From a virus, in IMG/VR virus record IMGVR_UViG_3300007352_000462, positions 1 through 22,647 of that record: a stretch of 22,647 bases of DNA; one strand, 5' to 3'. Shown piece after piece: positions 2,960 to 16,995 of this stretch (position 1 is its first letter; each line of letters starts with the position of its first letter). The position numbers and the translations under genes are program-made. The notes under the pieces are model-generated. The model was not told the DNA's origin, did not search any database, and saw nothing but the letters and a program-made list of their open reading frames with translations.

Positions 2960-3713
2960 TAACGACGATCTTATGAAATTAGTTCACAATTGTGGACTAA
3001 AAACGGGCAGAGCACAGGCATTTCAGGGGATTGCTCTACTGGCAGAATTTCTGCAATGGAAGGCCATGCAAGAAATCGTAGATGATAAGAAAACCCTTAA
3101 TAATATGGGTTATTCCAATATCGACGATTATCTAAAAGAGGCTGGTTTTGGTAAAACAGACGGCTATAAAAAATTGAAAATAGCTCGCACTTTTAGTTCA
3201 CACGAAGTGCAGTTTTTTGGACAAATAGGACTATCCAAGGGAGATCTCCTTAGCATTGCCAATATGTCACCGGAGGAACGCCCGCGCATTGCAAACGGCA
3301 AGCTTGAGAACTACGACACAGCGGATAAAGATGAACTGAAACACATCATTGATGACCTTATCGCTGAAAATATCGAACACAAAAAACAGGCAAAGGGCTA
3401 CAGCGAAAACAAGATCGTCAAAAAAGCTTCTAAATTAGAAGCCGACAATAAAACCCTGCATGACAAAGTGAAAACGCTCAACCTGCAATTACGCCTTGCC
3501 GACAAGAGCGCCACCGCCTTCCAGGACGCCTACAGCACAGCGGACGAACTACTTGATCAGGCTATTAAATTGCTCAATGACGCCAATAGCTCACCGATGG
3601 TTGAGAACGTCCTTGACGATGAAAAGACCCTCAAAAAATACACCAACATGGCGAACCTCTTCGAGAAGAAAATGAAGGGTTGTTTAGCCATCATGCGGGA
3701 GGCGTTATCGTGA
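2949..3713 (+). CDS. Coiled-coil early protein upstream of transposase
   Basis: A 254-residue protein starting at a GTG (product MENNNDDLMK). The N-terminal half (residues 20-110) is helical with phrases such as MGYSNIDDYLKEAG and IGLSKGDLLSIANM, reminiscent of replication or ParB-like HTH helper domains. Residues 130-190 are strongly charged and predicted to form a coiled coil, and the C-terminus is another helical segment. I cannot name a family. Its stop overlaps the transposase GTG start, so the two are translationally coupled, which suggests a role in transposition, replication or its control. Confidence 0.65.
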   Translation: MENNNDDLMKLVHNCGLKTGRAQAFQGIALLAEFLQWKAMQEIVDDKKTLNNMGYSNIDDYLKEAGFGKTDGYKKLKIARTFSSHEVQFFGQIGLSKGDLLSIANMSPEERPRIANGKLENYDTADKDELKHIIDDLIAENIEHKKQAKGYSENKIVKKASKLEADNKTLHDKVKTLNLQLRLADKSATAFQDAYSTADELLDQAIKLLNDANSSPMVENVLDDEKTLKKYTNMANLFEKKMKGCLAIMREALS

Positions 3714-5752
3714 GCGGCGACCTCGTGACCTTACAGCAGCTTGCAGAGCTTGAGGGCGCGCCATACGACACTATTAAAAAGGCCTATCAGCGGCAGGCTT
3801 ACAGCCTCGTGCAACTCGACGGCACACAGCCGCTGATCCGGATTATTGACCCTGCGATTTCAGCGCAGGCAAAAGCACGTTATTTCAGTCCCACAGCCGC
3901 TGAACCTGCAGCGGCATCCCCTCTGAAGGCGCAGGGAGAAGTGATGACCCTCCCTGCGTCTTCCCTTTCACTAAGAAAAGACGGCATCATGTCCACCACG
4001 GAATTAAAAGACTGGCAGCGGGAATGTATGATGGCGAGGCTCACGATATTGCAGCAGATTGATACCATCGCAGCAGAGCATAAGCTCTCAATCAATAAGG
4101 CCATTCAGCGGTTTATCAAGCTGATAGATAAAGATCACCTGCCGGAGCATGTCCGGCAGCTCATTCCACAGGCAAATCACAGGGACGGCTCAGAGAGAAC
4201 ACTGAGCTGGCAAACTCTCTACCGCTGGATAAAGATAAGGAAAGAACTGGGCGCACTCGGCCTCGCCCCCGAGGACACAGAACGTCTCTATGTCCCAGCC
4301 TGGGCGGAGCGGTTCCTCTCCATATACAGGATACCGAGCAAGCCCTCCATTCCGCAGACACTTGAGCTGATGGGCGCGGATGCTCCTACATACTGGTCCG
4401 CCGTCCGTTTCCTTAAAAAATTCTCCCGCCTCGATGTACAGCGCGGCAGGATGTCCGGCTCCGAATTAAGGAGCGTCAAGGGATACACCATCAGAGACAA
4501 AAGCCACCTTATGCCGCTTGATGTAGTAGTAGCCGACGGGCATTCCTATAAGGCAAAAGTCGCGCATCCCGTCCACGGCAAGCCCTTCAATCCCGAGGTT
4601 GAGGGCATCATCGATGCGGCAACGCGCGTATGTCTCGGCTGGTCCACTGGCCTGGCCGAGTCCTCTATGGTAGTAGCAGACGCCATAAGGCACGCCGTTA
4701 CGGTCAACGAAAAGAAGGCCATCGGCGGCGTATTCGCTATCTTCTACAGCGACCAGGGCGCGGGTAATAAGGCGCATGCTATCTCGCATGAACTCACCGG
4801 CATCCTGTCCAGGATCGGCGCGACACCCAAGACCGGCATCCCCGGCAATCCGCAGGGCCGGGGCATCATCGAAAAAGCGCAATACTCCATCTGGATACGC
4901 GGAGCAAAGCAGCTCCCGACCTTCACCGGCAGCGGCATGGACAATCTGGCATACAGAAAGACCATGAAGATCGTTGATAAAGACATTAAAGAAAAAGGCA
5001 CCTCACGGCTGCTCATTTCATGGGGGCAATTCCTCGAATACTGCGAGGAGACCGTGGCCTCATATAACAACCGCTCTCACTCTGCATTACCAAAAATCAC
5101 AGACCCGACTACCGGTTACAGGCGGCACATGACGCCCGTTGAAATGTGGAACCGATACGTTGAGATCGGATGGAAGGCGATGCTGCTGGATCCATTAGAG
5201 ATCAAGGACCTCTTCCGCCCGCAGGTAAGCTGCATTGTCCGCAATGCAATGGTCAGGGTATTCACCAATACCTATTACAACAATCTGCTTGAGCACTATC
5301 ACGGCGAGACGGTGTTTGTAAATTATGACATTCACGATCCGAAAGTTGTCTGGGTCAGAGACCAGCAGCAGCGGCTGATCTGCGAGGCAGTCTTTGAGGC
5401 AAATAAACGGAGCTACTTCCCTGTGTCGGTTATTGAGATGGCGAGGGAGAAGAGATTAAAAGGCCGCATGAAGCGCCTTGAATCCCAGCTTGATGACGCC
5501 AAGGTCGAGGCGTATGGAGTCGAGGAGATCACGATACCCGAGGAGGCATTGATCGTGCCGACTGAGGCGATGGAAGACGTAACCCCGGATACCAGTGAAG
5601 AGACGCAGATATTTGAGGAAGCCTGGCAGCGGTATGAATTTTTAATGCAGCATCAAGGTGAGATGTCCACGGAAGACAGACAGTGGATCAATGAGTATAT
5701 GAACTCGCGTGAATACAGGAGTATCTATGGCAAAGAGGAAGCGACAGGATAA
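3710..5752 (+). CDS. Mu-like DDE transposase (MuA homologue)
   Basis: About 680 residues, close to MuA (663). I choose the GTG at 3710: it overlaps the upstream stop and lies behind GCGGGAGGCG, while an ATG 30 nt upstream is buried in the preceding gene. The N-terminus (VTLQQLAELEGAPYDTIKKA) is a MerR-like winged HTH of the type that binds transposon ends or the enhancer. The integrase-like core has candidate catalytic acids D276 (VVADGH), D348 (FYSDQG) and E388 (GRGIIEKAQ). A mu-transposase C-terminal barrel follows (DIHDPKVVWVRDQQQRLICE), then an acidic tail that in Mu contacts MuB and ClpX. It catalyses strand transfer in phage integration and replicative transposition. The DDE assignment is by motif, not alignment. 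Confidence 0.95.
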   Translation: MSGDLVTLQQLAELEGAPYDTIKKAYQRQAYSLVQLDGTQPLIRIIDPAISAQAKARYFSPTAAEPAAASPLKAQGEVMTLPASSLSLRKDGIMSTTELKDWQRECMMARLTILQQIDTIAAEHKLSINKAIQRFIKLIDKDHLPEHVRQLIPQANHRDGSERTLSWQTLYRWIKIRKELGALGLAPEDTERLYVPAWAERFLSIYRIPSKPSIPQTLELMGADAPTYWSAVRFLKKFSRLDVQRGRMSGSELRSVKGYTIRDKSHLMPLDVVVADGHSYKAKVAHPVHGKPFNPEVEGIIDAATRVCLGWSTGLAESSMVVADAIRHAVTVNEKKAIGGVFAIFYSDQGAGNKAHAISHELTGILSRIGATPKTGIPGNPQGRGIIEKAQYSIWIRGAKQLPTFTGSGMDNLAYRKTMKIVDKDIKEKGTSRLLISWGQFLEYCEETVASYNNRSHSALPKITDPTTGYRRHMTPVEMWNRYVEIGWKAMLLDPLEIKDLFRPQVSCIVRNAMVRVFTNTYYNNLLEHYHGETVFVNYDIHDPKVVWVRDQQQRLICEAVFEANKRSYFPVSVIEMAREKRLKGRMKRLESQLDDAKVEAYGVEEITIPEEALIVPTEAMEDVTPDTSEETQIFEEAWQRYEFLMQHQGEMSTEDRQWINEYMNSREYRSIYGKEEATG

Positions 5753-5814: not shown

Positions 5815-6507
5815 TTGAAAAGGGTATTTGTCAATACGCAAAATGTTAAGTTTTTCAAAGGCGCGATCGAGCGGCTGCAGAGCAGGGAAGAGCAGGTCCC
5901 TGGCATGGCGCTTGTATACGGCGAGCCGGGCCTCGGCAAAACAAAAGCCGTAGCTGCATGGTGTGCGCAGAACAGCAACAACTCCTATTTCATCCGGACG
6001 AAAAAGTTAATGACAGGTCGGTGGCTGCTTGAGGAGCTGGTCTCAGAGCTTGGAGAACAGGCTGATAAACGTGTGCCTGATCTCTACCGGCAAGCAAGGA
6101 ACATCCTGATGGAGAAGCAATGTACTGTGTTTTTCGACGAGGTTGATTACCTTTGTCATGATGCGCGGGTAATTGAGACTATACGCGATCTCCATGACGA
6201 CACAGGCACTCCTATCGTAATGATAGGTATGGCTGAGGCTGAAAAAAAGTTATCACGATATCGGCATTTATATGATAGGTTTTCCGAGGTAGTGAAATTC
6301 CAAGACCTGACAGAGATGGACGTTCGCACTATCGCTGATGAAATGTGTGAAGTGAAAGTGAACAACGACGCTATCGCACATATACACTCACAGGGCAGTC
6401 GCTTCCGGAAAATAGTGATCCAGTTATACCGATGCGAATCCATAGCAAAGAAAAACAGTCTCAAGGAGATTACTGCCGCACACCTGCAAAACGGGAGGCG
6501 TAAATGA
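5815..6507 (+). CDS. MuB-like AAA+ target-selection ATPase
   Basis: A 230-residue AAA+ ATPase beginning at TTG behind GGGAGGA. Walker A is GEPGLGKT (residues 36-43), Walker B VFFDEVD (105-111), and a sensor-like strand VMIGM follows at about 135-140. Helical C-terminal residues 165-230 match the MuB/TniB-type lid. In Mu, MuB binds DNA with ATP, selects target sites and stimulates the transposase; its place directly after the transposase supports that role. MuB is 312 residues with an N-terminal HTH domain, which is missing here, as in many shorter homologues. It overlaps the next gene by 4 nt. Confidence 0.92.
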   Translation: MKRVFVNTQNVKFFKGAIERLQSREEQVPGMALVYGEPGLGKTKAVAAWCAQNSNNSYFIRTKKLMTGRWLLEELVSELGEQADKRVPDLYRQARNILMEKQCTVFFDEVDYLCHDARVIETIRDLHDDTGTPIVMIGMAEAEKKLSRYRHLYDRFSEVVKFQDLTEMDVRTIADEMCEVKVNNDAIAHIHSQGSRFRKIVIQLYRCESIAKKNSLKEITAAHLQNGRRK

Positions 6508-7603: not shown

Positions 7604-7800
7604 AATTAGCAAGTGCGCGAGTATGTGTTCAGTGTGAAGAGGTATTTGATCACATCAGGACATTGTCTGCCGGTACGGGTGATGCGAGGGTCTGCCCATC
7701 ATGCATGTCTACATCGACAGTGCGACTCTCGACATGGCTGCAGACGATGGAGGAGTTTGAGAAGACCGGCAGTTGCTGTGCAGCGGAGGTGCCAGCATGA
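7600..7800 (+). CDS. Small zinc-ribbon-like protein
   Basis: A 66-residue protein with two CxxC pairs, CVQC near residue 9 and CPSC near residue 32, giving a probable four-cysteine zinc knuckle, plus a terminal CC pair. The start (ATGA overlap with gemA, GGAGG ribosome binding site) is well supported. No family name is justified. Mu Com is also a small zinc-binding protein but acts as a translational activator elsewhere in the genome, so this is not called Com. Confidence 0.65.
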   Translation: MKLASARVCVQCEEVFDHIRTLSAGTGDARVCPSCMSTSTVRLSTWLQTMEEFEKTGSCCAAEVPA

Positions 7801-8033
7801 AAAATCAAGAAACAGATATGGACTGGCAATTTCTGATTATGCTGCTTTGCATAGTCGCGGCATTCGGGGCCGGGATTATCATCGGCGGCAAGATCGGTGA
7901 GCGGACCGCTAAACAATATTACGAGGGGGGAGGCGATGGTAACTTTTTTCATAGGACTATTTATCGGAATGATTGCAGGGCTGGGGCTTGCGGGCCTGTT
8001 ACAGGCGGCGAGGGAGACCGGCAGACGCGTTGA
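7797..8033 (+). CDS. Small single-span membrane protein
   Basis: A 78-residue protein starting at the ATGA overlap with the upstream stop (the frame opens 24 nt earlier). Residues 11-31 (WQFLIMLLCIVAAFGAGIII) are a strong transmembrane helix followed by a basic GGKIGERTAKQYY segment. The last 30 residues overlap another membrane ORF in a different frame and look unconstrained. Function is unknown. Confidence 0.55.
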   Translation: MKNQETDMDWQFLIMLLCIVAAFGAGIIIGGKIGERTAKQYYEGGGDGNFFHRTIYRNDCRAGACGPVTGGEGDRQTR

Positions 8034-8064
8034 GGGACTTGAGAAAGAGGAGGTAAACGGATGA
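7936..8064 (+). CDS. 42-residue membrane peptide (DUF3789-like)
   Basis: This ORF begins inside the previous gene in another frame, behind a GGGGGGAGGCG ribosome binding site. It encodes MVTFFIGLFIGMIAGLGLAG followed by LLQAARETGRRVEGLEKEEV. The N-terminal glycine-rich transmembrane helix and short charged tail fit the tiny phage proteins grouped as DUF3789. It ends in a 4-nt overlap with gam. The purposeful ribosome binding site makes it at least as credible as the ORF it overlaps. Confidence 0.55.
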   Translation: MVTFFIGLFIGMIAGLGLAGLLQAARETGRRVEGLEKEEVNG

Positions 8065-8582
8065 TAAACATGGAGGACATACAGCAGGCAGCAAAACAGA
8101 TCGCGGATGCCCGGCAGATATTGACGCAACGCAAGCATGAGTATGAGCTGAACATCAATATCGTGAAGAAAAAATACTACCAGAGCATCCGCTCTATCGG
8201 TCAGAAGCTGGCAGAAAAGATTCAGGAGCTAAAGACCCTGATTAAAGAGGGTAAGCCGCTTTTCAAGAGTCCCCGGACGCAGACCTTTTTCGGGATCCGC
8301 GTGGGCCTCAAAAAGGAAAAAGGCAAGATGCAGATCGACAACGAGGAGGCGACAATCGCGGCGATAAAAAAGCATTACCCGAGCACATGGAAGCTGTACA
8401 TCAGGACGGAGGAAAAGCCGCATAAAAAAGCCCTTGAATCTCTCCCTGCAGCAGAGCTGAAAAAGCTCGGTATCCGTATCACAGATGATACAGATGAGGT
8501 CTATATCAAATTTCAAGATGACGAAATAGATAAATTCGTCGAGGCGATCCTGAAGGATAAAGACGTGGAGGAGGCGGCTTGA
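8061..8582 (+). CDS. gam: Host-nuclease inhibitor Gam (Mu Gam-like)
   Basis: A 173-residue protein with the Mu Gam family layout: a long N-terminal helix (residues 1-60, ADARQILTQRKHEYELNINI), then the conserved LFKSPRTQTFFGIRVGLKKE at about 68-90, the WKLYIRT segment and an acidic C-terminal helix. Mu Gam dimers bind duplex DNA ends, block RecBCD-type exonucleases and are related to Ku. It lies in the early operon as in Mu, with an ATGA overlap upstream and a 1-nt overlap downstream. Confidence 0.92.
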   Translation: MINMEDIQQAAKQIADARQILTQRKHEYELNINIVKKKYYQSIRSIGQKLAEKIQELKTLIKEGKPLFKSPRTQTFFGIRVGLKKEKGKMQIDNEEATIAAIKKHYPSTWKLYIRTEEKPHKKALESLPAAELKKLGIRITDDTDEVYIKFQDDEIDKFVEAILKDKDVEEAA

Positions 8583-8755
8583 TGGCCGCTGACCACCACA
8601 TAGAGACAATAAAGAGCCATTGCGAAAACATTGAAATGATAATCAAAGGCTATCAGTGGGGTAAAGAGGCAGGGGAATGTTTTGCCGAGATAGAAAAGAG
8701 CATTAACGTAATAAAAATGAGAGTGGCCTATCTTACTGAGGAGGCAGCGGCATGA
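8582..8755 (+). CDS. Small helical protein, 57 residues
   Basis: The frame starts at an ATG sharing one base with the gam stop and ends in a 4-nt overlap with the next gene, so it exactly fills the space. The product begins MAADHHIETIKSHCENIEMI and is acidic and helical throughout, with two cysteines. I recognise no family. The precise stop-start junctions on both sides are the main evidence that it is real. Confidence 0.6.
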   Translation: MAADHHIETIKSHCENIEMIIKGYQWGKEAGECFAEIEKSINVIKMRVAYLTEEAAA

Positions 8756-8991
8756 TCTCGGCCCAGCGGATATCAGAGATGAATTTTATTGAGACGCTGG
8801 ATGCGGATATGCTGCGCTTCGTGACTCGCATCAGGCAAGACATTTACCATACCGAAACATTAATCAGGGAACTTCTCACAGAATACCCTGAGACTCGCGG
8901 ATGGACTCACTCTGAAATAGCGATTCTGCTGGGCAGGCGCAGGGAAACAATATCACGATATATAAAAAAGGTTAAAAAGGAGATGGTATGA
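8752..8991 (+). CDS. Small HTH regulator
   Basis: A 79-residue protein ending in a clear helix-turn-helix (TRGWTHSEIAILLGRRRETI, then SRYIKKVKKEMV). The arrangement resembles the C-terminal HTH of Crp-type or sigma-like regulators (LGRRRETISRYI is close to the Crp recognition-helix pattern) without the sensory domain. The N-terminal half is helical. It overlaps both neighbours by 4 nt. A transcription-regulatory role within the early operon is inferred. Confidence 0.7.
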   Translation: MISAQRISEMNFIETLDADMLRFVTRIRQDIYHTETLIRELLTEYPETRGWTHSEIAILLGRRRETISRYIKKVKKEMV

Positions 8992-9380
8992 AAAAAATAT
9001 TAATGATTTTGATGTTGATTGCATTATGGGATACCGCATATGGTCTGGAGCTGCAATGGACTGCCCCGACGACCAATGCAGACGGGACCCCGTTGACCGA
9101 TCTGGCCGGGTATAAAATCTACTGGGGAGAGGTGTCCGGTAAATATACGGACAGTCTGGACGTTGGAAACGTTACAGTTAAAAAAATGCCTGATATCGAG
9201 GGTGAACGATACTATGCGACGACGGCATACGATCAATCAGGGAATGAGAGCGGGTACTCAAATGAGATTGCAGCGACGTGGAAGAATCCGCCTGATGGAG
9301 CACAGATACAATTGAGCGCACAGAGCGTGCCTATCGTCTGTAATGGCTGCACGCTTGTGATTAACGGACAGGTCCAATGA
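8988..9380 (+). CDS. Exported fibronectin type III-like protein
   Basis: A 130-residue protein with a signal peptide (MKKILMILMLIALWDTAYG), followed by LELQWTAPTTNADGTPLTDL and AGYKIYWGEVSGKY, the opening strands of a fibronectin type III domain. ATTAYDQSGNESGYSNE forms the closing strands at about 78-94. The C-terminal 30 residues carry a CNGC motif that may form a disulfide. Fn3 domains usually mediate binding outside the cytoplasm. An exported Fn3 protein in the early operon of a Mu-like phage is unusual. Surface modification or superinfection exclusion is possible, with no direct evidence. Confidence 0.75.
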   Translation: MKKILMILMLIALWDTAYGLELQWTAPTTNADGTPLTDLAGYKIYWGEVSGKYTDSLDVGNVTVKKMPDIEGERYYATTAYDQSGNESGYSNEIAATWKNPPDGAQIQLSAQSVPIVCNGCTLVINGQVQ

Positions 9381-9387
9381 TTTTATC

Positions 9388-9411
9388 GTAGGGCCCCGGT
9401 ACGCCGGGGCC
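9388..9411. repeat. Perfect 8-bp GC hairpin, CGTAGGG-type dispersed repeat
   Basis: GGCCCCGG (9392-9399) and CCGGGGCC (9404-9411) form a perfect stem with a TACG tetraloop. No T-tract follows, so it is not a typical intrinsic terminator. The leading CGTAGGG plus hairpin matches the start of the element in the portal gene (18356-18378), suggesting a shared dispersed repeat family. It fills the 47-nt gap between two genes. Confidence 0.55.
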
Positions 9412-9427
9412 TCGCAATGAGGTCATT

Positions 9428-9700
9428 ATGAGCTTAGGATTTGGATTAGAAAAAATAAACGATATATTCAGCGGCGACGGCATCGCGCCGGTGTTTAGTG
9501 CGTCCGAGATGGCGATATTAAAACACCGCGCCGAGATTGCGAAGGTAAAGTATATCCCGAATCAGGTCATGGGGATCGCGCCGTATGATCTCAAAGTTTT
9601 CAACTTTGTACTGTCATATAAACGCAATGAGACGCCATGGGCGATCATGAACAGGAATCAGCGCGACTGGTTATTGAAAATCAAGGACAGCCTGAAATGA
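9428..9700 (+). CDS. Hypothetical early protein, 90 residues
   Basis: A 90-residue protein beginning MSLGFGLEKINDIFSGDGIA. I recognise no family. A tryptophan pair and the motif NRNQRDWLLKIKDSLK at the C-terminus suggest a compact helical fold. The ribosome binding site is moderate (AATGAGGTC). Its stop overlaps the next ATG by 4 nt, so it belongs to the early operon. Confidence 0.55.
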   Translation: MSLGFGLEKINDIFSGDGIAPVFSASEMAILKHRAEIAKVKYIPNQVMGIAPYDLKVFNFVLSYKRNETPWAIMNRNQRDWLLKIKDSLK

Positions 9701-9966
9701 GCCCCTTCATTGAATTTAATTGCGGCTGCATCGAGGGGCCGATGCCCTCGGTCAAATGCTGGCAGCACGATGCACCTATTAAAGTTGTCATTCCCGCGAA
9801 GGCGGGAATCCAGAAGAAAGAAGGGCGAGGGGTTGCGCAATACATTGACTGCCCGATGGGCCGACCGATACAGGTCTGGATCACGAATGGCCGTTGCAGC
9901 GGAGCACAGATATGCCCTCAGCGGTATATCTGCCCGCATAAACCGGCACAAGGGAAATTATTATGA
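9697..9966 (+). CDS. Cysteine-rich small protein with repeat-encoded segment
   Basis: An 89-residue protein starting at an ATGA overlap. It contains seven cysteines: FNCGC and KCW near the N-terminus, then DCP, RC, ICP and ICPH in the C-terminal half, probably binding zinc. Between the two clusters, residues 31-39 (VIPAKAGIQ) are encoded by a dispersed palindrome and so are not original domain sequence. It overlaps the next gene by 4 nt. The function is unknown. Confidence 0.55.
   Translation: MSPFIEFNCGCIEGPMPSVKCWQHDAPIKVVIPAKAGIQKKEGRGVAQYIDCPMGRPIQVWITNGRCSGAQICPQRYICPHKPAQGKLL
9790..9809. repeat. REP-like palindrome (ATTCCCGC/GCGGGAAT)
   Basis: ATTCCCGC (9790-9797) and GCGGGAAT (9802-9809) are perfect 8-bp arms around GAAG. 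This is the widespread ATTCCC-N8-GGGAAT element (called dRS3 in Neisseria) found dispersed in many Gram-negative genomes. Here it is read in frame within a cysteine-rich gene as VIPAKAGI. Confidence 0.8.
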
Positions 9967-10118
9967 ACGATTGCAAATCATCATGTCCATGCAAAGCAGA
10001 GCTGCCTGCGCATGCGCATATAAACGGGCAGATAGTTTTGTTTTGCATATATTGCACAGAGCGGAAGGATTGCGAGCAGTATGCAGTCCTTAAGGAAAAT
10101 GGACCAGATAACGTTTAA
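9963..10118 (+). CDS. Cysteine-rich micro-protein, 51 residues
   Basis: The ORF starts at an ATGA overlap with the preceding gene and encodes MNDCKSSCPCKAELPAHAHI, continuing to a FCIYCTERKDCEQY motif. The six cysteines (C-x3-C-x-C, then C-x2-C and a further C) suggest one zinc site. It has the same style as the preceding gene, and the two may act together. The next gene starts within its 3' end in another frame. Confidence 0.5.
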   Translation: MNDCKSSCPCKAELPAHAHINGQIVLFCIYCTERKDCEQYAVLKENGPDNV

Positions 10119-10461
10119 CTTTGAATTGAACCGGGAAGAGCAAATGATCATAAACATACTACAGACCTGCAAAGGCAAAGATAAAGCGATACTGGGGGCA
10201 AATATCGCCTCTCTCACCGGCATATCATATGATGATGTCCGGCAGACAATCAGCCACCTGGTAAATGAGCATCATTGCCTGATCGCGTCTTACAGTAAAG
10301 GCTATTACGTCCCTGTCACCGCCGAGGAGGTAGACGCGGCGACCCGTAGCCTGCGGCATCGCGGGATATCCATACTGGTGAGAGCAGCGAGGCTGCAAAA
10401 ATCGTCTATAGAGGATATTTTCAATCAGGCAAAACTGGAATTTAGGGAGAGTATGAATTGA
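10081..10461 (+). CDS. Winged-helix early protein
   Basis: A 126-residue protein. The core, residues 22-75 (MIINILQTCKGKDKAILGAN, then LTGISYDDVRQTISHL, then the YSKGYYV wing), is a convincing winged helix. The C-terminal 45 residues are basic and helical. I keep the ATG at 10081 because GGAAGGA lies 11 nt upstream; an alternative ATG at 10099 has its AAGGA only 2 nt away. It is the last gene of the compact early block, followed by about 200 nt with a different organisation. Confidence 0.65.
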   Translation: MQSLRKMDQITFNFELNREEQMIINILQTCKGKDKAILGANIASLTGISYDDVRQTISHLVNEHHCLIASYSKGYYVPVTAEEVDAATRSLRHRGISILVRAARLQKSSIEDIFNQAKLEFRESMN

Positions 10462-10665
10462 AATATAATGTTTTTTCCAAAGATCAAAGAAATTATTTTC
10501 TTGTTTTATAAATAAAGTTCTTGACAAACCGGAACGCCTGGATCATCGACGACGGGGCAAGGAATAGAATATGAACAATCTAAAAACAATGATAGCAACC
10601 GGGACGCAGATCAAGACCTGTGGTAGTCGTTCGCTGCATCCGGTTGTTATGATTTTTTGTAAGCC
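10462..10665 (+). promoter_or_regulatory. AT-rich spacer with TTGACA and possible short transcript
   Basis: This 204-nt gap opens with an AT-rich stretch and holds a perfect -35 hexamer TTGACA at 10521-10526. No good -10 follows at 16-18 nt; GATCAT at 10541-10546 is the nearest and is spaced too closely. The promoter may therefore need an activator or may not be real. A 32-codon ORF (10571-10669, AAGGA ribosome binding site, ATGA overlap with the next gene) could be a leader peptide. A hairpin with a T-tract ends the segment. A short RNA of about 110 nt is possible. Confidence 0.35.
10592..10657 (+). terminator. Long hairpin followed by T6
   Basis: ATAGCAACCGG (10592-10602) pairs with CCGGTTGTTAT (10640-10650), with one G-U pair. 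After an internal loop, GCAG (10606-10609) pairs with CTGC (10634-10637), leaving a 24-nt loop. GATTTTTTG follows at once. The geometry is that of an intrinsic terminator with an unusually long apical region, or of a structured leader RNA for the nuclease gene that starts 9 nt later. Confidence 0.5.
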
Positions 10666-11127
10666 ATGACAAAACTGACTTCAATAGATATTGAAATAGC
10701 AGTAGCAAGGTTTTTAAATGTGCGCGTCAATCTGATTGTTCCGAACGTGTCATGGGGACTGGAAATCCATGAATGTGATTTACTTGTTGTTACAAAAAGC
10801 CGGTATCTGTGGGAAGTCGAAATTAAGGTATCGAAGGCGGATCTCGTTAAAGACAAGCTAAAAACTCACTGTCACAAGAACAGCAAGTTGAAACGTCTCT
10901 ATTTTGCAATCCCTGAATTTCTCGAATCTGAAATTGAGCACATCCCTGAACGGGCGGGGATTATCATCGTGAACGAATTAGGTAAATGTAGGACGCTGCG
11001 GTATCCGAAAGAGAATGGTACTTATAAAATCAGTGAGGCTGATTACCTTAAAATTGCACATCTTGGATGTATGCGGATGTGGGGATTAAAAAGGGGACTA
11101 CAAGCGGCGTTGTCTAAAAAATCATAA
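10666..11127 (+). CDS. PD-(D/E)XK-type nuclease-like protein (MmcB-like)
   Basis: A 153-residue protein. Residues 30-54 (GLEIHECDLLVVTKSRYLWE, then VEIK) show the PD-(D/E)XK pattern: D38, then E52-x-K54 on the next strand, followed by the helix VSKADLVKDKLK. The wording resembles the MmcB-like DNA-repair/restriction-type nuclease fold group. The C-terminal part has IPERAGIIIVNE, a typical last strand of this fold. Possible roles are DNA processing or anti-competitor defence. Unlike the compact genes upstream it is a single ORF bounded by structured spacers. Confidence 0.65.
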   Translation: MTKLTSIDIEIAVARFLNVRVNLIVPNVSWGLEIHECDLLVVTKSRYLWEVEIKVSKADLVKDKLKTHCHKNSKLKRLYFAIPEFLESEIEHIPERAGIIIVNELGKCRTLRYPKENGTYKISEADYLKIAHLGCMRMWGLKRGLQAALSKKS

Positions 11128-11138
11128 CGTAAAGCTGA

Positions 11139-11163
11139 CTGACGAGTGCCTGTAGGCCGTCAG
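11139..11163. repeat. Two-tier hairpin between cargo-like ORFs
   Basis: CTGACG (11139-11144) pairs with CGTCAG (11158-11163), and inside it GCC (11148-11150) pairs with GGC (11155-11157) across a TGTA loop, with AGT bulged on one side. No T-tract follows. It occupies the 52-nt gap between the nuclease and the next ORF. Confidence 0.45.
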
Positions 11164-11179
11164 GAGCAGAAAGGATAGT

Positions 11180-11461
11180 ATGAACACAGAAGATAACAAT
11201 GAAGTCAAACAGTCATCTGAGGCACTCGTTCACGTCCAGCGCCGGGTTAGGACGTACCGAGAAGATGATTGGAAAGCCGAAGTAGAAGTGCTTGAAGATA
11301 ATTCTGATTCACAGTGGGAAAGGTATAAATTAAAGGTCATAAGAACATTGCGAGAAAGCAGAATTTATAAACCCACTCCTGACGGCACAATCTTTGATGT
11401 AGAACGTAACAAAAAATATAATGGGGCTTACTCTGGCATGTGGTCATTGTCAGAGTCCTAA
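11180..11461 (+). CDS. Hypothetical protein, 93 residues
   Basis: A 93-residue acidic protein starting with MNTEDNNEVKQSSEALVHVQ behind AGAAAGGATAG. I recognise no family. A central VEVLEDNSDSQWERYKLKVI segment suggests alternating strands, and the C-terminus is FDVERNKKYNGAYSGMWSLS. It lies between the nuclease and the integrase, separated from both by palindromic spacers, and may be a one-gene cargo unit. Confidence 0.5.
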   Translation: MNTEDNNEVKQSSEALVHVQRRVRTYREDDWKAEVEVLEDNSDSQWERYKLKVIRTLRESRIYKPTPDGTIFDVERNKKYNGAYSGMWSLSES

Positions 11462-11470
11462 CGATGATTC

Positions 11471-11488
11471 GACAGCATACATGCTGTC
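11471..11488. repeat. Perfect 8-bp inverted repeat upstream of integrase
   Basis: GACAGCAT (11471-11478) and ATGCTGTC (11481-11488) are separated by only AC. TATTTATT follows. It may be a recombinase or regulator operator, or a terminator for the preceding gene. It sits inside a wider imperfect pair, CCTAA (11458-11462) and TTAGG (about 11516-11520), which superficially recalls an integron recombination site. Confidence 0.5.
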
Positions 11489-11532
11489 TATTTATTAAAC
11501 GGGGACCGTAAAAACTTAGGCAGGAGGCTAAT

Positions 11533-12531
11533 ATGCAGGCACTAAAAAAAGAACAAGTACAGCATAACACTGAGAAGCAGAAAAAGACGCCGATATTGCA
11601 ATTGGTTCGGAATCATTGCAGGGTGAAGCACATGTCATATCGGACGGAGCAGGCATACTGTCACTGGGTCAAGCGGTTTTTCATATTCCACAAGCAAAAG
11701 GCACTTGCTTTACTCGGCAGGGACGAAGTCGAGATATATCTCACTCATTTGGCAACGGAGCGTAACGTGTCGGCCAGCACACAGAATCAGGCATTTAATG
11801 CACTCCTGTTTCTCTATAAACACGTTATCCCTAAAGACCTCGGTGATATCAACGCGATACGCGCGCGGAAGCCGAAGCGTTTGCCGGTTGTGCTCACTAA
11901 GGATGAAGTCCGTGCCGTCATGAAAAATCTCTATGAGGTCGATCACCTGATCGCTTCGCTGCTTTACGGCTGCGGGCTCCGGATACTGGAATGTCTGCGG
12001 CTGCGGGTCAAGGACATAGATTTTGAACGGATGCTGATAACGATCCGTGGCGGTAAAGGCGATAAGGACAGAGTAGTGCCACTACCGGAGAAAACTGTCG
12101 GGCCGTTGAAAGATCACCTACGGACTGTAGAGGGGATGCATAAAAAAGACGTTGCAGACAAGCTGCCTATATCCGAGCTTAACGGGATAGAGAAAAAATA
12201 TCCGGACATCCATACCAGATGGGGATGGTATTATGTATTCCCTTCCCGCAAGAGGGCCGTCGATCCAAAGAGTAAGATTTTAAAGCGGCATCACTATCAT
12301 GAGACCGCCATCCAGCGCAGTATGAAGCTGGCAATCCAGTCGGCAGGGATTGTAAAACACGCATCCTGCCACACGCTGAGACATAGCTTTGCGACTCACC
12401 AGATCGAGGCCGGTGTTGACATAAGAACAGTCCAATCTTTGCTCGGTCACAAGAGCCTTGAAACCACTCAAATATATACCCATGTGCTGAACCGTCCGGT
12501 GAATACGGTCAGTCCGTTTGATACGCTATGA
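11533..12531 (+). CDS. Integron-integrase-type (IntI-like) tyrosine recombinase
   Basis: A 332-residue tyrosine recombinase with all catalytic residues: R150 (YGCGLRILE), K175 (GGKGDKDR), H280 and R283 (HTLRHSFATH), H306 (LLGHKS) and nucleophile Y315 (TQIYTHVL). An extra segment at about 206-256 (LPISELNGIEKKYPDIHTRW, then YVFPSRK, then KRHHYH) matches the insertion that separates integron integrases from XerC/D. The C-terminus (THVLNRPVNTVSPFD) also fits the IntI signature. The N-terminal SAM-like core-binding domain spans about 20-110. IntI enzymes recombine folded single-stranded attC with attI. The gene has an AGGAGG ribosome binding site and overlaps the Mor-like gene by 4 nt. A Mu-like phage does not need it for integration. 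Confidence 0.93.
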   Translation: MQALKKEQVQHNTEKQKKTPILQLVRNHCRVKHMSYRTEQAYCHWVKRFFIFHKQKALALLGRDEVEIYLTHLATERNVSASTQNQAFNALLFLYKHVIPKDLGDINAIRARKPKRLPVVLTKDEVRAVMKNLYEVDHLIASLLYGCGLRILECLRLRVKDIDFERMLITIRGGKGDKDRVVPLPEKTVGPLKDHLRTVEGMHKKDVADKLPISELNGIEKKYPDIHTRWGWYYVFPSRKRAVDPKSKILKRHHYHETAIQRSMKLAIQSAGIVKHASCHTLRHSFATHQIEAGVDIRTVQSLLGHKSLETTQIYTHVLNRPVNTVSPFDTL

Positions 12532-12848
12532 ACTGGCTCGACAATCTAAAAATCACAGACCTGCCTGAGAAGCATCGCGAGATGGCGGAGGTCATATCAG
12601 AGGTCGTTGACCAGGAGACCGCGTTAAAGGTCGTCATGCTCGTGACTGAACATTTCGGCAAACAGGGGCTATATCTGCGAGGTCTGGATTCCTTGATACG
12701 TCAGAAAAAAGAGGAGTTCATCCGTAAATATTTTACGGGCAATAACCATTGCGACCTGGCCAGGGCCACCGGGTTTTCGGAGCGGTGGGTATATGAGATA
12801 CTCAAAGGATCACAAAATAATAATCAGGTTGACATGTTCATAAAATAA
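12528..12848 (+). CDS. Mor-like middle/late transcription activator
   Basis: A 106-residue protein of the Mor/C family. The N-terminal part is the dimerisation helix region (WLDNLKITDLPEKHREMAEV, then VVDQETALKVVMLVTEHFGK). The C-terminal helix-turn-helix is at about 73-93 (CDLARATGFSERWVYEILKG), close to the Mor recognition pattern. In Mu, Mor turns on the middle promoter and then C the late promoters; here one protein lies directly before the lysis cassette, so it may switch on the late genes. Its start is inside the integrase stop (ATGA), so integrase and activator are translated from the same message. Confidence 0.88.
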   Translation: MNWLDNLKITDLPEKHREMAEVISEVVDQETALKVVMLVTEHFGKQGLYLRGLDSLIRQKKEEFIRKYFTGNNHCDLARATGFSERWVYEILKGSQNNNQVDMFIK

Positions 12849-12885
12849 CTGCTACCCTCTAAAAATCCCCACTTAAAAACCCGCT

Positions 12886-12960
12886 TCACTTTTTGAACCA
12901 CTTCAAAAGACTGTCTTCCGGCTTTTCTCTAAACTCAATCATGGCCCGATTCTCATTCAT
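12886..12960 (-). CDS. Possible 24-residue minus-strand micro-ORF
   Basis: On the minus strand an ATG (complement of 12958-12960) follows a very strong CTGGAGGTGAAAC ribosome binding site. It encodes MNENRAMIEFREKPEDSLLK plus WFKK before a stop. It is the only minus-strand candidate between the repressor and the window end. No promoter is identified. The ribosome binding site could be fortuitous, but the near-ideal spacing and the intergenic position make it worth recording. Confidence 0.3.
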   Translation of the reverse strand: MNENRAMIEFREKPEDSLLKWFKK

Positions 12961-12979
12961 GTTTCACCTCCAGATTAAA

Positions 12980-13017
12980 GATGCCCCGTCCATCCAGCGG
13001 GGCATCGTCTTTTTCTT
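12980..13017 (+). terminator. Strong intrinsic terminator after the mor-like gene
   Basis: GATGCCCCG (12980-12988) and CGGGGCATC (12998-13006) form a perfect 9-bp stem with a 9-nt loop, followed by GTCTTTTTCTTTTTT. This is the best terminator in the window. It should end the early/mor transcript. The endolysin ATG lies 16 nt beyond the T-tract, leaving no room for a separate promoter between them. Confidence 0.9.
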
Positions 13018-13032
13018 TTTTGGGGGGCTGCG

Positions 13033-13629
13033 ATGACACCCTACGAGAAAGCATACACGGAGACAATGGGCATTGAGGGTATCTACTCCAATGATCCAAA
13101 GGATTTCGGCGGGGAGACGTACAAGGGGATCGCCCGGAAGAAAAATCCGGACTGGCACGGCTGGACATTTATCGACGAAGCAAAGAAGAAGCCGGGATTC
13201 CCGGCGTCAATCAAGGGCAATGCGCTGATCGAGGAGCTGGTAAAAGATTTTTATAGAGCCCAATTCTGGAACCATGTATGGGGCGACAAGGTGGCTGCAT
13301 TGTCGCCGGACATAGCCTCTGAAATGTTTGACACAGCAGTCAATCAGGGCGAACACTGGGCAATCATCTATCTGCAGCAAGCGCTGAATCTGCTAAACAG
13401 AAACGGCTCGTTATACCCCGATCTCGTCGAGGACGGCTCCATCGGAGAAAAATCCATCACGGCACTGCAGACGTATTTACAGAGAGACCCTGTGTCGATG
13501 CTGCTCTTGTGGATGAACATTTTTCAGGGCGCGCGATACGCGGAGATCATGAAAAAGAGCCCGACGCAGGAAGGCTATGCGCGCGGCTGGGCCAAAAGAA
13601 TCACAATTACAAAAACCAAGGAGGCATAA
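13033..13629 (+). CDS. Endolysin, GH108-type muramidase
   Basis: A 198-residue lysozyme-like protein. The N-terminus has the GH108 signature, IEGIYSNDPKDFGGETYKGI, with probable catalytic Glu15. The remaining catalytic-domain helices run to about 110 (FDTAVNQGEHWAI). A peptidoglycan-binding-type C-terminal part with DGSIGEKSITALQTYLQ follows. It cleaves peptidoglycan glycan strands at lysis. There is no signal peptide, so release through the membrane needs a holin, which the next gene may supply. It starts just after a strong terminator, an unusual position for a late gene. Confidence 0.93.
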   Translation: MTPYEKAYTETMGIEGIYSNDPKDFGGETYKGIARKKNPDWHGWTFIDEAKKKPGFPASIKGNALIEELVKDFYRAQFWNHVWGDKVAALSPDIASEMFDTAVNQGEHWAIIYLQQALNLLNRNGSLYPDLVEDGSIGEKSITALQTYLQRDPVSMLLLWMNIFQGARYAEIMKKSPTQEGYARGWAKRITITKTKEA

Positions 13630-13632
13630 ATC

Positions 13633-14208
13633 ATGGATCAAAAAAACATCCTGCAATCAAGAACATTCTGGGTCAATATCCTCGCAGTAGTGGCTATGCT
13701 GGTACAGACTCAGACGGGATTCATTGTCGACCCTGAAGCACAGGGTGCAATCCTTGCCGTGATAAATGTGATTCTGAGGTTCGTTACTAAATCGGTAGTC
13801 GTATGGGGCAGCCACGATTCGGGCGGCTCAAGCGGATTAAGCTCCCTGTGCGCATGCCTGCTGGCCGTTATGCTCCTGACAAGCTGCTCCGCTCTCCATC
13901 CCAATACCTACAAATACGTCGAGACCACAAAGGTCACTGCCGAGGGGATCGCCAAGATCGCCATTAATATGCACAAGGCCGAGACGCTCGATGATAAGAA
14001 TTACCTGCGGGTAAAGGACACCTACGAACGGGCACGGAAGGCCAGCGACGCCGCAATATTTGCGATGCAAATGTCCCTTGAGGTCGGCGAGGATCCGCGC
14101 AGCTCTGAAAACTACAATCTGGCCCTCGATGAGTCCATGCGGCTGCTGACAAAGCTCATCGAACTGGCCGTTGATCTCAAACTCATACAGGGAGGTGGAC
14201 AGCAATGA
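13633..14208 (+). CDS. Holin-like membrane domain joined to a lipoprotein-like domain
   Basis: A 191-residue protein of two parts. Residues 1-60 (RTFWVNILAVVAMLVQTQTG and GAILAVINVILRFVTKSVVV) are two hydrophobic helices as in small phage holins. Residues 70-85 (LSSLCACLLAVMLLTSC) form a lipoprotein signal with a perfect lipobox L-T-S-C85, followed by a helical soluble domain to 191. Normally these would be separate genes, a holin and an Rz1-like or lysis lipoprotein. No ATG, GTG or TTG start lies in frame between them before the lipobox helix, so the frame reads as one polypeptide. A lost stop, a merged sequencing error or a real fusion are all possible. Confidence 0.75.
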   Translation: MDQKNILQSRTFWVNILAVVAMLVQTQTGFIVDPEAQGAILAVINVILRFVTKSVVVWGSHDSGGSSGLSSLCACLLAVMLLTSCSALHPNTYKYVETTKVTAEGIAKIAINMHKAETLDDKNYLRVKDTYERARKASDAAIFAMQMSLEVGEDPRSSENYNLALDESMRLLTKLIELAVDLKLIQGGGQQ

Positions 14209-14393
14209 ACGACGCAGTCCAGGCACTCAATATACTGGCAGCAGCCTTACCGTCATTGATCAACATGGTCGCCCATTACGAGGAGATCGTCTCCCGTCCC
14301 GACACCGCGCCAGAGGACAAAGAGAAGGCCAAGGCATTACTGGAGTCGATGCGGTGGAAACCGTTTGATGAGCTGGAGAAAGAGGCGGGATGA
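14205..14393 (+). CDS. Hypothetical lysis-region protein, 62 residues
   Basis: A 62-residue protein with a hydrophobic N-terminal half (ALNILAAALPSLINMVAHYE) and an acidic helical C-terminal half. It starts behind GGGAGGTGG in a 4-nt overlap with the preceding gene and ends in another 4-nt overlap. It is common for Mu-like lysis cassettes to hold such small proteins. I cannot assign a function. Confidence 0.6.
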   Translation: MNDAVQALNILAAALPSLINMVAHYEEIVSRPDTAPEDKEKAKALLESMRWKPFDELEKEAG

Positions 14394-14740
14394 ATCCTGA
14401 ACAGATCGCCATCATTAACACCGTCGCCTTAATTCTTGAGCGGGTCGGCACCTGGCCGGTAGGGACAATATTTGCAGTCGTTGTCGTCGGCCCCTGGGGG
14501 ATGATGTATTTCATTTCCCGCGCGCAGGAGAAAAGATTCGAGGCGGTTGCCAGGATGTATGAGAACAATGTTGATCTGGTAAAAAACTACGAGAGGGTCG
14601 CCAAGAGCCTGCATGACCTGGTCGTATTAAACACGTCGTCCTTAACCGGGGTATCTGACAGGATAGACAATAACCTGTTTTGCCCTTTCATGAGAAAAAC
14701 AAAGCCAGGCGGCGGTACAGGAGGCCCAAATGAGCACTGA
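14390..14740 (+). CDS. Membrane-anchored coiled-coil protein (possible spanin or holin partner)
   Basis: A 116-residue protein with one strong transmembrane helix (about residues 21-43, WPVGTIFAVVVVGPWGMMYF) followed by a helical, coiled-coil-like segment (EKRFEAVARMYENNVDLVKN) and a Gly/Pro-rich tail. The topology (short N-terminus, one span, long helix) is that of an i-spanin or an accessory holin. It overlaps both neighbours. The role is inferred from the position between lysis and packaging genes. Confidence 0.6.
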   Translation: MNPEQIAIINTVALILERVGTWPVGTIFAVVVVGPWGMMYFISRAQEKRFEAVARMYENNVDLVKNYERVAKSLHDLVVLNTSSLTGVSDRIDNNLFCPFMRKTKPGGGTGGPNEH

Positions 14741-14966: not shown

Positions 14967-15484
14967 TGGCAAGGCATCAACGCAGGCACGGCAAAATACA
15001 TGAGCTGCCCAAGGACATTTTGAAACAGGTCCACGATTTATTGCTTGAGCCTAAAATCACATATAGCGACATCGTCGCATTCCTGAAAGATAATGGCCAC
15101 GAGGTTTCTGACTCCGCTGTCGGACGGTATAGCGAGTGGTTTAACGAGTGGCGCGAAACAGAGATGCTGCGGGATCAGGCCGCTTTAATTGCCTCAGACC
15201 CTGCTACAGCGCTTGATCTTGAAAAGATGACATCCACTATGGCCACGACCCGCTTTGCATACGCGATGAAGAAAGAGGGTTTTGATATTACCGAGCATCC
15301 GAAGCTGATAGCCGCATTTGCAACGATGCAGGCGAGCAGCGTTAAGCGGGAGCAGTGGAACTCAGTTGTGAAGGAACGAGTTATGAAGACCGCTGATGAC
15401 GTTTCAAAGATCGCAAAGAAAGGCGGCTTGACCGACGACGCAGCCGCGCAGATCCGCGCGAAGATATTGGGAATAGCAAAATGA
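14966..15484 (+). CDS. Terminase small subunit, DUF3486 (Mu gp27-like)
   Basis: A 172-residue protein starting at GTG behind TAAGGAG. The N-terminus (KIHELPKDILKQVHDLLLEP, then ITYSDIVAFLKDNGHEVSDS, then AVGRYSEWF) is the DUF3486 HTH region that recognises packaging DNA. The C-terminal helices end in QIRAKILGIAK. It partners the large subunit, which begins in a 4-nt overlap with its stop. In Mu it helps choose the pac site and headful packaging. Confidence 0.9.
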   Translation: MARHQRRHGKIHELPKDILKQVHDLLLEPKITYSDIVAFLKDNGHEVSDSAVGRYSEWFNEWRETEMLRDQAALIASDPATALDLEKMTSTMATTRFAYAMKKEGFDITEHPKLIAAFATMQASSVKREQWNSVVKERVMKTADDVSKIAKKGGLTDDAAAQIRAKILGIAK

Positions 15485-16995
15485 CGACGACTGGCATTAT
15501 GAACATAGACGACCTGCCCAAAGACGGCGTCCTACTGGACTATCAGCGCGAGTGGATCGCTGACAAGGCCGACGTTAAGGTTTGCGAGAAGTCCCGTCGG
15601 GTCGGTCTCACCTGGGGAGAGGCTGCAGACGACGCTATCGTCGCTGCCCAGCAGACCGGCATGGACGTTTTTTATATTGGCTACAACAAAGATATGTCGA
15701 GGGAGTTTATTGACGCCTGCGCCTTCTGGGCACGTCATTATAAACTCGCCGCGTCCGAAGTATCGGAATTTATTTTTAAGGAAGAAAACGAAGATAAAGA
15801 GATCCACGCATTCAGGATAGACTTTGCTTCCGGGTTTAAAATCCTCGCCCTCAGCTCAAGACCCTCAAATCTCAGAGGTAAGCAGGGCATAGCGGTCATT
15901 GACGAGGCCGCGTTCCATGACGACCTGCAGGGGCTCATTAAAGCGGCTATGGCGTTTTTGATGTGGGGGGGCAAGGTGCGCATTATCTCCACACATTTTG
16001 GAGAGAGTAATACATTTAACCAGCTCATTGACGATATCCGCAAGGGTAAATATCCATACAGCCTGCACTCGATCACCCTCGACGATGCGCTTGAAGATGG
16101 ACTTTATAAAAGAATTTGCCTTGTGCTCGGTAAGCAGTGGACTCCGGACGCGCAAGAGCAGTGGAAAGCGGACCTGGTCAAATCATACGGCGATCACGCG
16201 GATGAGGAATTATTCTGCATCCCGTCCAAAGGCAGCGGCATATATTTTACAAGCGCGCTTATTGAATCCTGCATGAAGCAGGACATCCCGGTCCTGCGGT
16301 GGACGTGCAAGGACGGCTTTGAACAGTTATCTGATGACGTCCGGGCAAAGGATTGCCAGGACTGGATTGACGACAACATAGCTCCCCTCCTTGATAAGGA
16401 GGGGCAGGGGTGGTCTGAATTGGCGCACCACTTCGGAGAGGATTTTGCGCGTGACCTTGATCTGACTATCCTCATGTTTGGTCAACGCCTGCCGAATCTC
16501 ACGATCCGGACGCCGTTTATCGTTGAGCTGAGGAATGTACCTTTCCGCCAGCAGGAACAAATCTTATTTTATATCTGCGACAAGCTGCCCAATTTCAGAG
16601 GCGGCGCGATGGATGCCAGGGGCAACGGCCAGTATCTCGCCGAGGTCGCCATGCAGCGTTACGGCGCATCCAGGATACAGCAGATCATGCTGACCCGGCA
16701 GTTTTACCAGGACGCCATGCCGAAATACAAAGTCCGCTTTGAGGACAAGACTATTGAGATAGCCGCTGACTCCGAGATACTTGACGATCACCGGGTCGTC
16801 AGACTTGAGAAAGGCGTGCCGGTCATATCCGACAGCCGGAGGGCCAGCAGCGAAGGCGGCAAGCGGCACGGTGACTCTGCGGTAGCAGGGATGCTGCTGG
16901 TTTATGCGGTGAATAATCTGAACGCGGGGCCGATTGAATTCCAGTCAACCGGCCAAAAACGGGCATTCACTAAAATGGCGGGGTTTTTTAGATGA
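15481..16995 (+). CDS. Terminase large subunit (Mu gp28-like)
   Basis: A 504-residue packaging motor. The ATPase domain shows Walker A-like EKSRRVGLTWG (36-46), Walker B VIDEAAFHDD (139-148) and coupling motif STH (170-172). After a linker comes the RNase H-like nuclease domain, starting GEDFARDLDL (319-328) with a second acidic motif AMDARGNG. It pumps DNA into proheads and makes the headful cut. The linker residues 301-311 (APLLDKEGQGW) are encoded by an in-frame dispersed repeat. Full length is retained and no frameshift is visible. Confidence 0.95.
   Translation: MTTTGIMNIDDLPKDGVLLDYQREWIADKADVKVCEKSRRVGLTWGEAADDAIVAAQQTGMDVFYIGYNKDMSREFIDACAFWARHYKLAASEVSEFIFKEENEDKEIHAFRIDFASGFKILALSSRPSNLRGKQGIAVIDEAAFHDDLQGLIKAAMAFLMWGGKVRIISTHFGESNTFNQLIDDIRKGKYPYSLHSITLDDALEDGLYKRICLVLGKQWTPDAQEQWKADLVKSYGDHADEELFCIPSKGSGIYFTSALIESCMKQDIPVLRWTCKDGFEQLSDDVRAKDCQDWIDDNIAPLLDKEGQGWSELAHHFGEDFARDLDLTILMFGQRLPNLTIRTPFIVELRNVPFRQQEQILFYICDKLPNFRGGAMDARGNGQYLAEVAMQRYGASRIQQIMLTRQFYQDAMPKYKVRFEDKTIEIAADSEILDDHRVVRLEKGVPVISDSRRASSEGGKRHGDSAVAGMLLVYAVNNLNAGPIEFQSTGQKRAFTKMAGFFR
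16382..16413. repeat. Dispersed palindromic repeat inside terminase gene
   Basis: CCCCTCCTT (16384-16392) and AAGGAGGGG (16396-16404) are perfect 9-bp arms around GAT, followed by CAGGGGTGG. The reverse complement of 21607-21639 is nearly identical, differing at about four positions. It is read in frame in the linker between ATPase and nuclease domains. Confidence 0.8.

Follow-up and report, generated by a model that had tools for sequence, protein, structure and literature searches.

The locus examined here raises the question of what an integron integrase gene is doing in the operon of a phage that is equipped with a transposase of its own. Integrons are gene-capture platforms of bacteria. 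The window, by which we mean the whole stretch of DNA analyzed, is the entire IMG/VR record IMGVR_UViG_3300007352_000462, a linear metagenomic virus fragment of 22,647 bp for which there is no cultured host.

The Phage and Its Gene Order

The genes of the window follow a Mu-like order, with transposase, TniB/MuB ATPase, early genes, mor, lysis genes, terminase and portal in succession. The transposase is a DDE enzyme of the MuA type (3710–5752, plus strand; phrog_310, E = 1.5e-128; Mu-transpos_C, PF09299), and the TniB/MuB-type AAA ATPase (5815–6507, plus strand) is supported by PF05621, PF13401 and phrog_296 (DNA transposition protein). A conserved winged-helix-like (wHTH) gene (10081–10461, plus strand; phrog_2113) forms the left border of the slot in which the cassettes described below are found, and is 74% identical to 9807–10175 of the nearest relative, G001 (also L002). 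The Mor-like middle/late transcription activator of 106 aa is encoded at 12528–12848 (plus strand; PF08765, E = 3.4e-10; phrog_532), and the terminase large subunit TerL (15481–16995, plus strand; phrog_2, E = 1.6e-31) served to find related phages. The presence of a DDE transposase with the Mu C-terminal domain, a MuB/TniB ATPase, Mor and Mu-type head genes shows at the level of gene content that the phage is Mu-like and transposable, with replicative transposition itself being inferred.

Elsewhere in the fragment, a minus-strand ORF adjoining a repressor-like gene (676–1281) has a signal-like N-terminal stretch, a YHCH motif and a thermonuclease-like domain; judged by eye only, it could possibly be a secreted nuclease carried by the phage. 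A short inverted repeat at 9786–9818, inside the ORF at 9637–9966, is of the GTCATTCCCGCGAAGGCGGGAATCC type and has 2 further copies in G001; we regard it as a REP-like repeat in a phage.

Identity of the Integrase

The gene at 11533–12531 (plus strand, 332 aa) encodes an integron integrase and not a XerC/D recombinase. Its product matches TIGR02249 over the full length of the model (1–315 of 315), scoring 402.8 bits where the cut-off is 265, and its scores for XerC (158, cut-off 335) and XerD (145, cut-off 330) are both far under threshold. Among solved structures the best match is 2A3V (265.8 bits), an integron integrase from Vibrio, and the alignment with it spans the IntI-specific stretch; residues R150, K175, H280, R283, H306 and Y315 are invariant in an alignment with the integrases of Virus Rctr41k and Shewanella. 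The preliminary description, which had claimed a complete IntI-type enzyme with these six residues and the IntI-specific insert, was thus correct on this point. It had also stated that a position among ordinary XerC/D integrases would refute its interpretation; this is not what the phylogeny gives, as the protein falls among integron integrases with host XerC/D split off at 100/100 in the careful tree and at 100 in the quick tree. Catalytic and recombination activity of the enzyme are inferred.

The position within the IntI family is less certain. The protein groups near viral IntIs (L008–L011) and apart from the sampled chromosomal IntIs of Nitrospirota, with weak support in both respects, and a sister relationship to the IntI of the related phage L016 is left undecided by the data (AU p = 0.10). 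As a sole query against viral contigs the window integrase gave no matches; the scan required an alignment of the window IntI with those of Rctr41k and M16-3, which returned 80 viral loci. The IntIs closest to that of the window occur in phage contigs L008–L012, where no attC lies nearby and where the enzyme may possibly have another role. In L008 the gene immediately following intI encodes a DNA primase, and the contig has another tyrosine recombinase and a Mor-like gene further on.

attC Sites Upstream of intI

The attC covariance-model search proposed in the preliminary description was run, and it yielded two attC sites directly upstream of intI that had gone unseen there. Both are on the minus strand and are supported by covariance model and R'' closure: the site at 11122–11252 belongs to a cassette encoding a 93-aa protein, and the site at 10529–10652 belongs to a cassette encoding an MmcB-like protein and is the terminal attC of the array. 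With a covariance model (R2) built from long-loop attC sites, including three from G001 and none from the window, a search of the full window on both strands gave 30.1 bits (E = 1.3e-5) for 11122–11252 and 22.9 bits (E = 6.5e-4) for 10529–10652, the next-best match having an E-value of 1.7. A model trained without any Mu-phage (G001) site (R3) again placed them at ranks 1 and 2 in the window, with E-values of 2.6e-6 and 0.098, respectively. In the negative control L088, a relative without an array, the best E-value was 0.24.

The arm scan, which is orientation-aware in that it expects the extra bases on the L'' arm, recovered attC arrays that were already known, including those of class 1 integrons and Shewanella. 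It scored 11122–11252 at 17.7 on the minus strand, a value reached in 1 of 200 whole-window shuffles, as the sole strong site in the window, and 10529–10652 at a weak 11.5. The distal site is thus the weaker one, both in the arm scan and in the model without G001 training sites. The features expected of attC are present, namely R''/L''/L'/R' boxes, extrahelical bases confined to a single arm and a variable loop, again more weakly at the distal site. The folding centroid of 11122–11252 is the attC stem, and the single-strand folding z-scores of the window sites (−0.68 and −0.25) are not separated from those of shuffles.

Other searches missed these sites. A strict scan of the window for RYYYAAC/GTTRRRY found no attC because the phage boxes read NNNTAAC/GTTANNN, and a covariance model trained on short-loop attC overlooked both sites because the loops here are approximately 70 nt long; the long-loop models found both. 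An Rfam search returned nothing.

Cassettes, Closure, and a Putative attI

The two attC sites delimit two cassettes, each with one plus-strand ORF antiparallel to its own attC. The ORF at 10666–11127 encodes an MmcB-like nuclease-family protein (PF06319, E = 9e-6; phrog_2776, E = 1.4e-22), and its TAA stop lies within the core box TCATAAC (11122–11128). The ORF at 11180–11461 (93 aa) belongs to no known family, having no Pfam or PHROG match, and its TAA lies within the core box TCCTAAC (11456–11462). Across the window, G001 and L016, the TAA stop is part of the core box in 8 of the 10 cassettes.

In an integron cassette the R'' box of attC complements the start of its own cassette, the pair being formed in the circle, and the adjacent R' comes from the neighbor. 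This closure holds throughout: the R'' box TCATAAC of attC 10529–10652 agrees with the start core of its own cassette at 7 of 7 positions, and all 7 bases agree in 10 of 10 cassettes of the three phages (2 of 2 in the window), whereas comparisons of R'' with the phage's other core boxes gave agreement at the variable positions in just 2 of 36 cases.

Between the first cassette and intI lies a putative attI (11456–11532, minus strand), consisting of the core TCCTAAC (GTTAGGA on the bottom strand) and 70 bp up to intI. Its core is the same as the R'' of the first cassette's attC and has the location and orientation expected of an attI; the assignment is inferred from position and core and was not made by homology. 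Within this region a perfect dyad, GACAGCATACATGCTGTC (11471–11488), is followed by an A/T-rich tail and may be an operator, a weak terminator or part of attI.

It therefore seems likely that intI is part of an integron with cassettes and not a lone enzyme, subject to the recombination activity being inferred. Tyrosine integrases are common in temperate phages, and one could suppose that the gene encodes an ordinary XerC/D-type phage integrase and that the inverted repeats beside it are chance structures or terminators. Against the first part stand the family scores, the tree and the IntI-specific match to 2A3V, and against the second the covariance-model E-values with the L088 control and the closure in 10 of 10 cassettes, so that this explanation is virtually ruled out.

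The Slot Before mor in Related Phages

The preliminary description had noted that intI overlaps the mor-like gene by 4 nt, which is correct (ATGA, 12528–12531), and had taken the overlap to mean that intI is part of the phage operon. The overlap alone is insufficient proof of this, as in G001 a 101-aa gene unrelated to intI overlaps mor by the identical 4 nt; the overlap marks the operon and is not peculiar to intI. The linkage itself does recur, as had been asked: in the independent contig L016, intI (9965–10990) and mor (10987–11301) share the same 4-nt overlap. Absence of the integrase from every related phage with a disrupted mor junction, named there as grounds for rejection, is thereby also excluded.

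L016 is a Mu-like phage of 37,474 bp with a TerL 71% identical to that of the window and with the same order of wHTH gene, array (here with four small ORFs), intI and mor. Its attC sites at 8586–8678 and 9577–9666 are supported by the covariance model; the two sites lying between them score low, one of them in either orientation, and fit by closure and position. Scans with TerL added 147 records, and no IntI was found among the TerL-related loci fetched except in L016/L090, L090 being the same contig as L016.

The nearest relative, G001 (39,332 bp), is collinear with the window, with proteins 70–90% identical in most shared genes, and has no IntI. Between its conserved wHTH gene and mor are 4.7 kb of other ORFs with attC-like borders, comprising four attC sites with arm-scan scores of 15.9–17.8, all on the minus strand, which occupy ranks 1–4 under the same covariance models, likewise all minus. 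The retention of cassettes without intI indicates that intI can be dispensable or lost. In L088 (TerL 85%) small ORFs occupy the slot, and the “CPRCG” gene with which they end overlaps mor; in G001 and L016 the array comes after a CPRCG-type gene, and the module therefore looks to have been inserted between this gene and mor.

No cassette gene is common to the window, G001 and L016, although identity in the flanking phage genes reaches 90%. Homologs of the genes in G001 cassettes 3 and 4 occur free, without attC, just after mor in the relative L089, which indicates that phage genes do enter cassettes. These two cassettes of G001 (11590–14552) repeat an entire module, made up of a 380-bp leader with a strong inverted repeat, a small ORF, a Bro/anti-repressor-like ORF and a terminator.

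Cassette Polarity

With intI on the plus strand at the right end and attC on the minus strand, the window has the canonical attC/attI/intI geometry, mirrored. The strand of attC is given as minus both by the extrahelical bases and by the covariance model, and the minus score exceeds the plus score for 9 of the 10 phage attC sites, with class 1 controls correctly oriented in 5 of 5 cases. The alternative of canonical plus-strand sites, with cassettes ending in attC, was considered and set aside, as the extrahelical bases, the strand of the model match and the position of intI all indicate the minus strand.

What departs from the canonical arrangement is the direction of the cassette ORFs, which lie on the plus strand. 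Polarity was assessed site by site, according to whether an ORF of ≥50 aa ends near the inverted or the canonical side of attC. At the phage sites (window, G001 and L016) an ORF was present at the inverted side in 9 of 10 cases and at the canonical side in 2 of 10, while at chromosomal attC sites of Nitrospirota the canonical side was occupied in 11 of 13 cases and the inverted side in 3 of 13; class 1 and Shewanella control cassettes were canonical. The cassette genes are read in the sense of the phage operon, into intI and mor and not away from intI. The usual integron trait of ORFs on the attC strand with a Pc in or near intI is therefore not met, the ORFs being antiparallel to attC, and a promoter search at the window integron found none above shuffle level. 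The inverted polarity bears on the integron subtype; recombination does not require canonical polarity.

An arm-level “longest ORF” test of polarity in other IMG/VR arrays was too noisy to be relied upon because of shadow ORFs, and for this reason the claim of inverted polarity is restricted to the Mu-like phages and, with less confidence, L053 (IMGVR_UViG_3300025655_000105). The latter is an unrelated YqaJ-type phage with an IntI and its own tyrosine integrase, in which three cassettes (RtcB, an unknown protein and Lar restriction alleviation; 7635–11011) have ORFs antiparallel to attC.

Host and Origin of the Integron

Among bacterial genomes, the TerL sequences most closely related to that of the window come from two Nitrospirota MAGs (77 and 71%), and both of these genomes carry a chromosomal IntI, as do 50 of the 246 Nitrospirota genomes sampled (approximately 20%, above cut-off). 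From this we infer that the host is probably a member of the Nitrospirota.

The prevalence of host IntIs favors an explanation in which transposition or packaging by chance brought a fragment of a host chromosomal integron (intI and a couple of cassettes) into the phage, which carries it as passive cargo, and known phage cases are indeed host-derived, e.g., those in Vibrio and Shewanella prophages (PMC9892861). On the other hand, both L016 and G001 have the slot at this very junction, the intI-mor overlap of 4 nt is seen twice, the cassette ORFs have the opposite polarity to those of host cassettes, and the window IntI lies near the viral L008–L011 and not the sampled Nitrospirota IntIs, albeit with weak support. 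Chance capture thus appears unlikely.

A further possibility is that IntI was co-opted, for multimer resolution or for recombination with host attC as a second integration route, and that the attC sites are relics. An array-free life of IntI in phages is illustrated by L008–L012, and G001 retains cassettes in the absence of intI. The attC R boxes, extrahelical bases and closure are, however, intact in all three Mu-like phages, and their cassette content is wholly different, pointing to use and not decay, which makes co-option harder still to entertain than chance capture. It is the combination of fixed junction, inverted polarity and complete turnover that speaks against both explanations.

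A Model for Cassette Exchange Beside mor

The reading we prefer, and consider likely, is that the window holds an integron, small but complete, that belongs to the operon of a Mu-like phage and in which IntI exchanges cassettes beside mor, recombination being inferred. The DDE transposase would move the phage as a whole, while IntI would work on the local array directly upstream of mor, recombining single-stranded minus-strand attC hairpins with attI beside intI. Such recombination would add, remove or reorder cassettes in the accessory slot that is bordered by the conserved wHTH gene and mor. As the cassette ORFs are in the phage sense, a likely consequence is that captured genes would be transcribed from a phage early or middle promoter, with no need for a Pc in intI. 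Ordinary host cassettes would land antisense, so that the phage would draw on cassettes of its own polarity.

The integrase family, the two attC sites, the cassette borders, the recurrence of the layout in related phages, the cassette turnover and the ORF polarity are shown; catalytic activity, the position of attI, co-transcription and a separate cassette pool are inferred. Only two cassettes are present in the window, which is a 22.6-kb metagenomic fragment, and no recombination has been observed. The overall interpretation of the preliminary description is nonetheless supported. Among the roles it had listed, capture of cassettes into the phage now has evidence, as cassettes bounded by attC directly precede intI in the window and in L016, and G001 has them in the corresponding slot; there is no evidence here for multimer resolution, and action on host integrons is no more than a possibility.

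A bolder reading is that phages have an integron class of their own, wired into the operon, with flipped cassettes read by a phage promoter and drawn from a separate phage cassette pool. Its cassettes would include phage-type genes, such as the anti-repressor-like and MmcB-like genes, and RtcB and Lar in the unrelated L053. We lean slightly against this reading as matters stand. If it is true, the integron would be a fast exchanger of accessory genes. A fixed slot in Mu-like phages with intI beside mor and the cassette genes in the phage sense would amount to phage-run swapping of accessory genes at one place, which would give a testable answer to the rapid turnover of anti-host genes. Widely transposing Mu-like phages could also spread intI and cassettes across chromosomes, and the question arises whether ORF polarity separates phage and bacterial cassette pools.

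Comparison With Known Systems

The sedentary chromosomal integrons of Nitrospirota share with the window the integrase family, the extrahelical-base pattern of attC and the intI/attC geometry, and differ in that ORFs are canonical at 11 of 13 sites and that the IntIs are in other branches of the tree. Described Mu-like phages (Mu and the D3112/JBD30 group) have the same transposase, TniB/MuB, Mor, terminase and portal in a Mu-like order, but the described Mu set is not known to include an integron integrase or attC array, and among the TerL-related loci fetched IntI is confined to L016/L090.

Among viral contigs, Virus Rctr41k (KX853513) likewise has IntI and six attC sites, and differs in that the array follows intI on the same strand and its ORFs have the canonical polarity; no Mor match was found in the 13.6-kb stretch examined. 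In this virus from a methane/ammonium-oxidizer enrichment (L003, KX853513.1, 4680–10101), the gene annotated as “xerD integrase-like” encodes an integron integrase, after which come the six attC on the same strand, and the virus looks to carry a complete integron. An intI with 4–10 attC in canonical geometry is also found in many IMG/VR contigs (L018, L022, L026–L028, L045, L050, L052, L056, L059, L067, L071 and L083), for which true phage and host integron are not distinguished.

Integrons and attC clusters in phage genomes have already been described by Qi et al. 2023 (PMC9892861), including Vibrio anguillarum p16/p42, a class 1 mosaic of P1, Shewanella M16-3 and CALINs in virulent phages. 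These share with the present case IntI, attC and cassettes within phage genomes, some lacking intI as G001 does. The intI-bearing cases differ in being host chromosomal or class 1 integrons in prophages or phage-plasmids, and Shewanella and class 1 cassettes of this type, when measured, had canonical polarity, unlike those of the window. The present case has instead a fixed phage-operon junction in transposable phages and ORFs antiparallel to attC. Searches of the open-access literature turned up neither an integron in the pre-mor operon of a Mu-like phage nor phage cassettes with inverted ORFs. Phage integrons themselves are thus known, and those reported so far look like stolen host pieces; what appears to be new, judged against that literature, is an integron built into the pre-mor operon of a transposable phage, with inverted cassettes.
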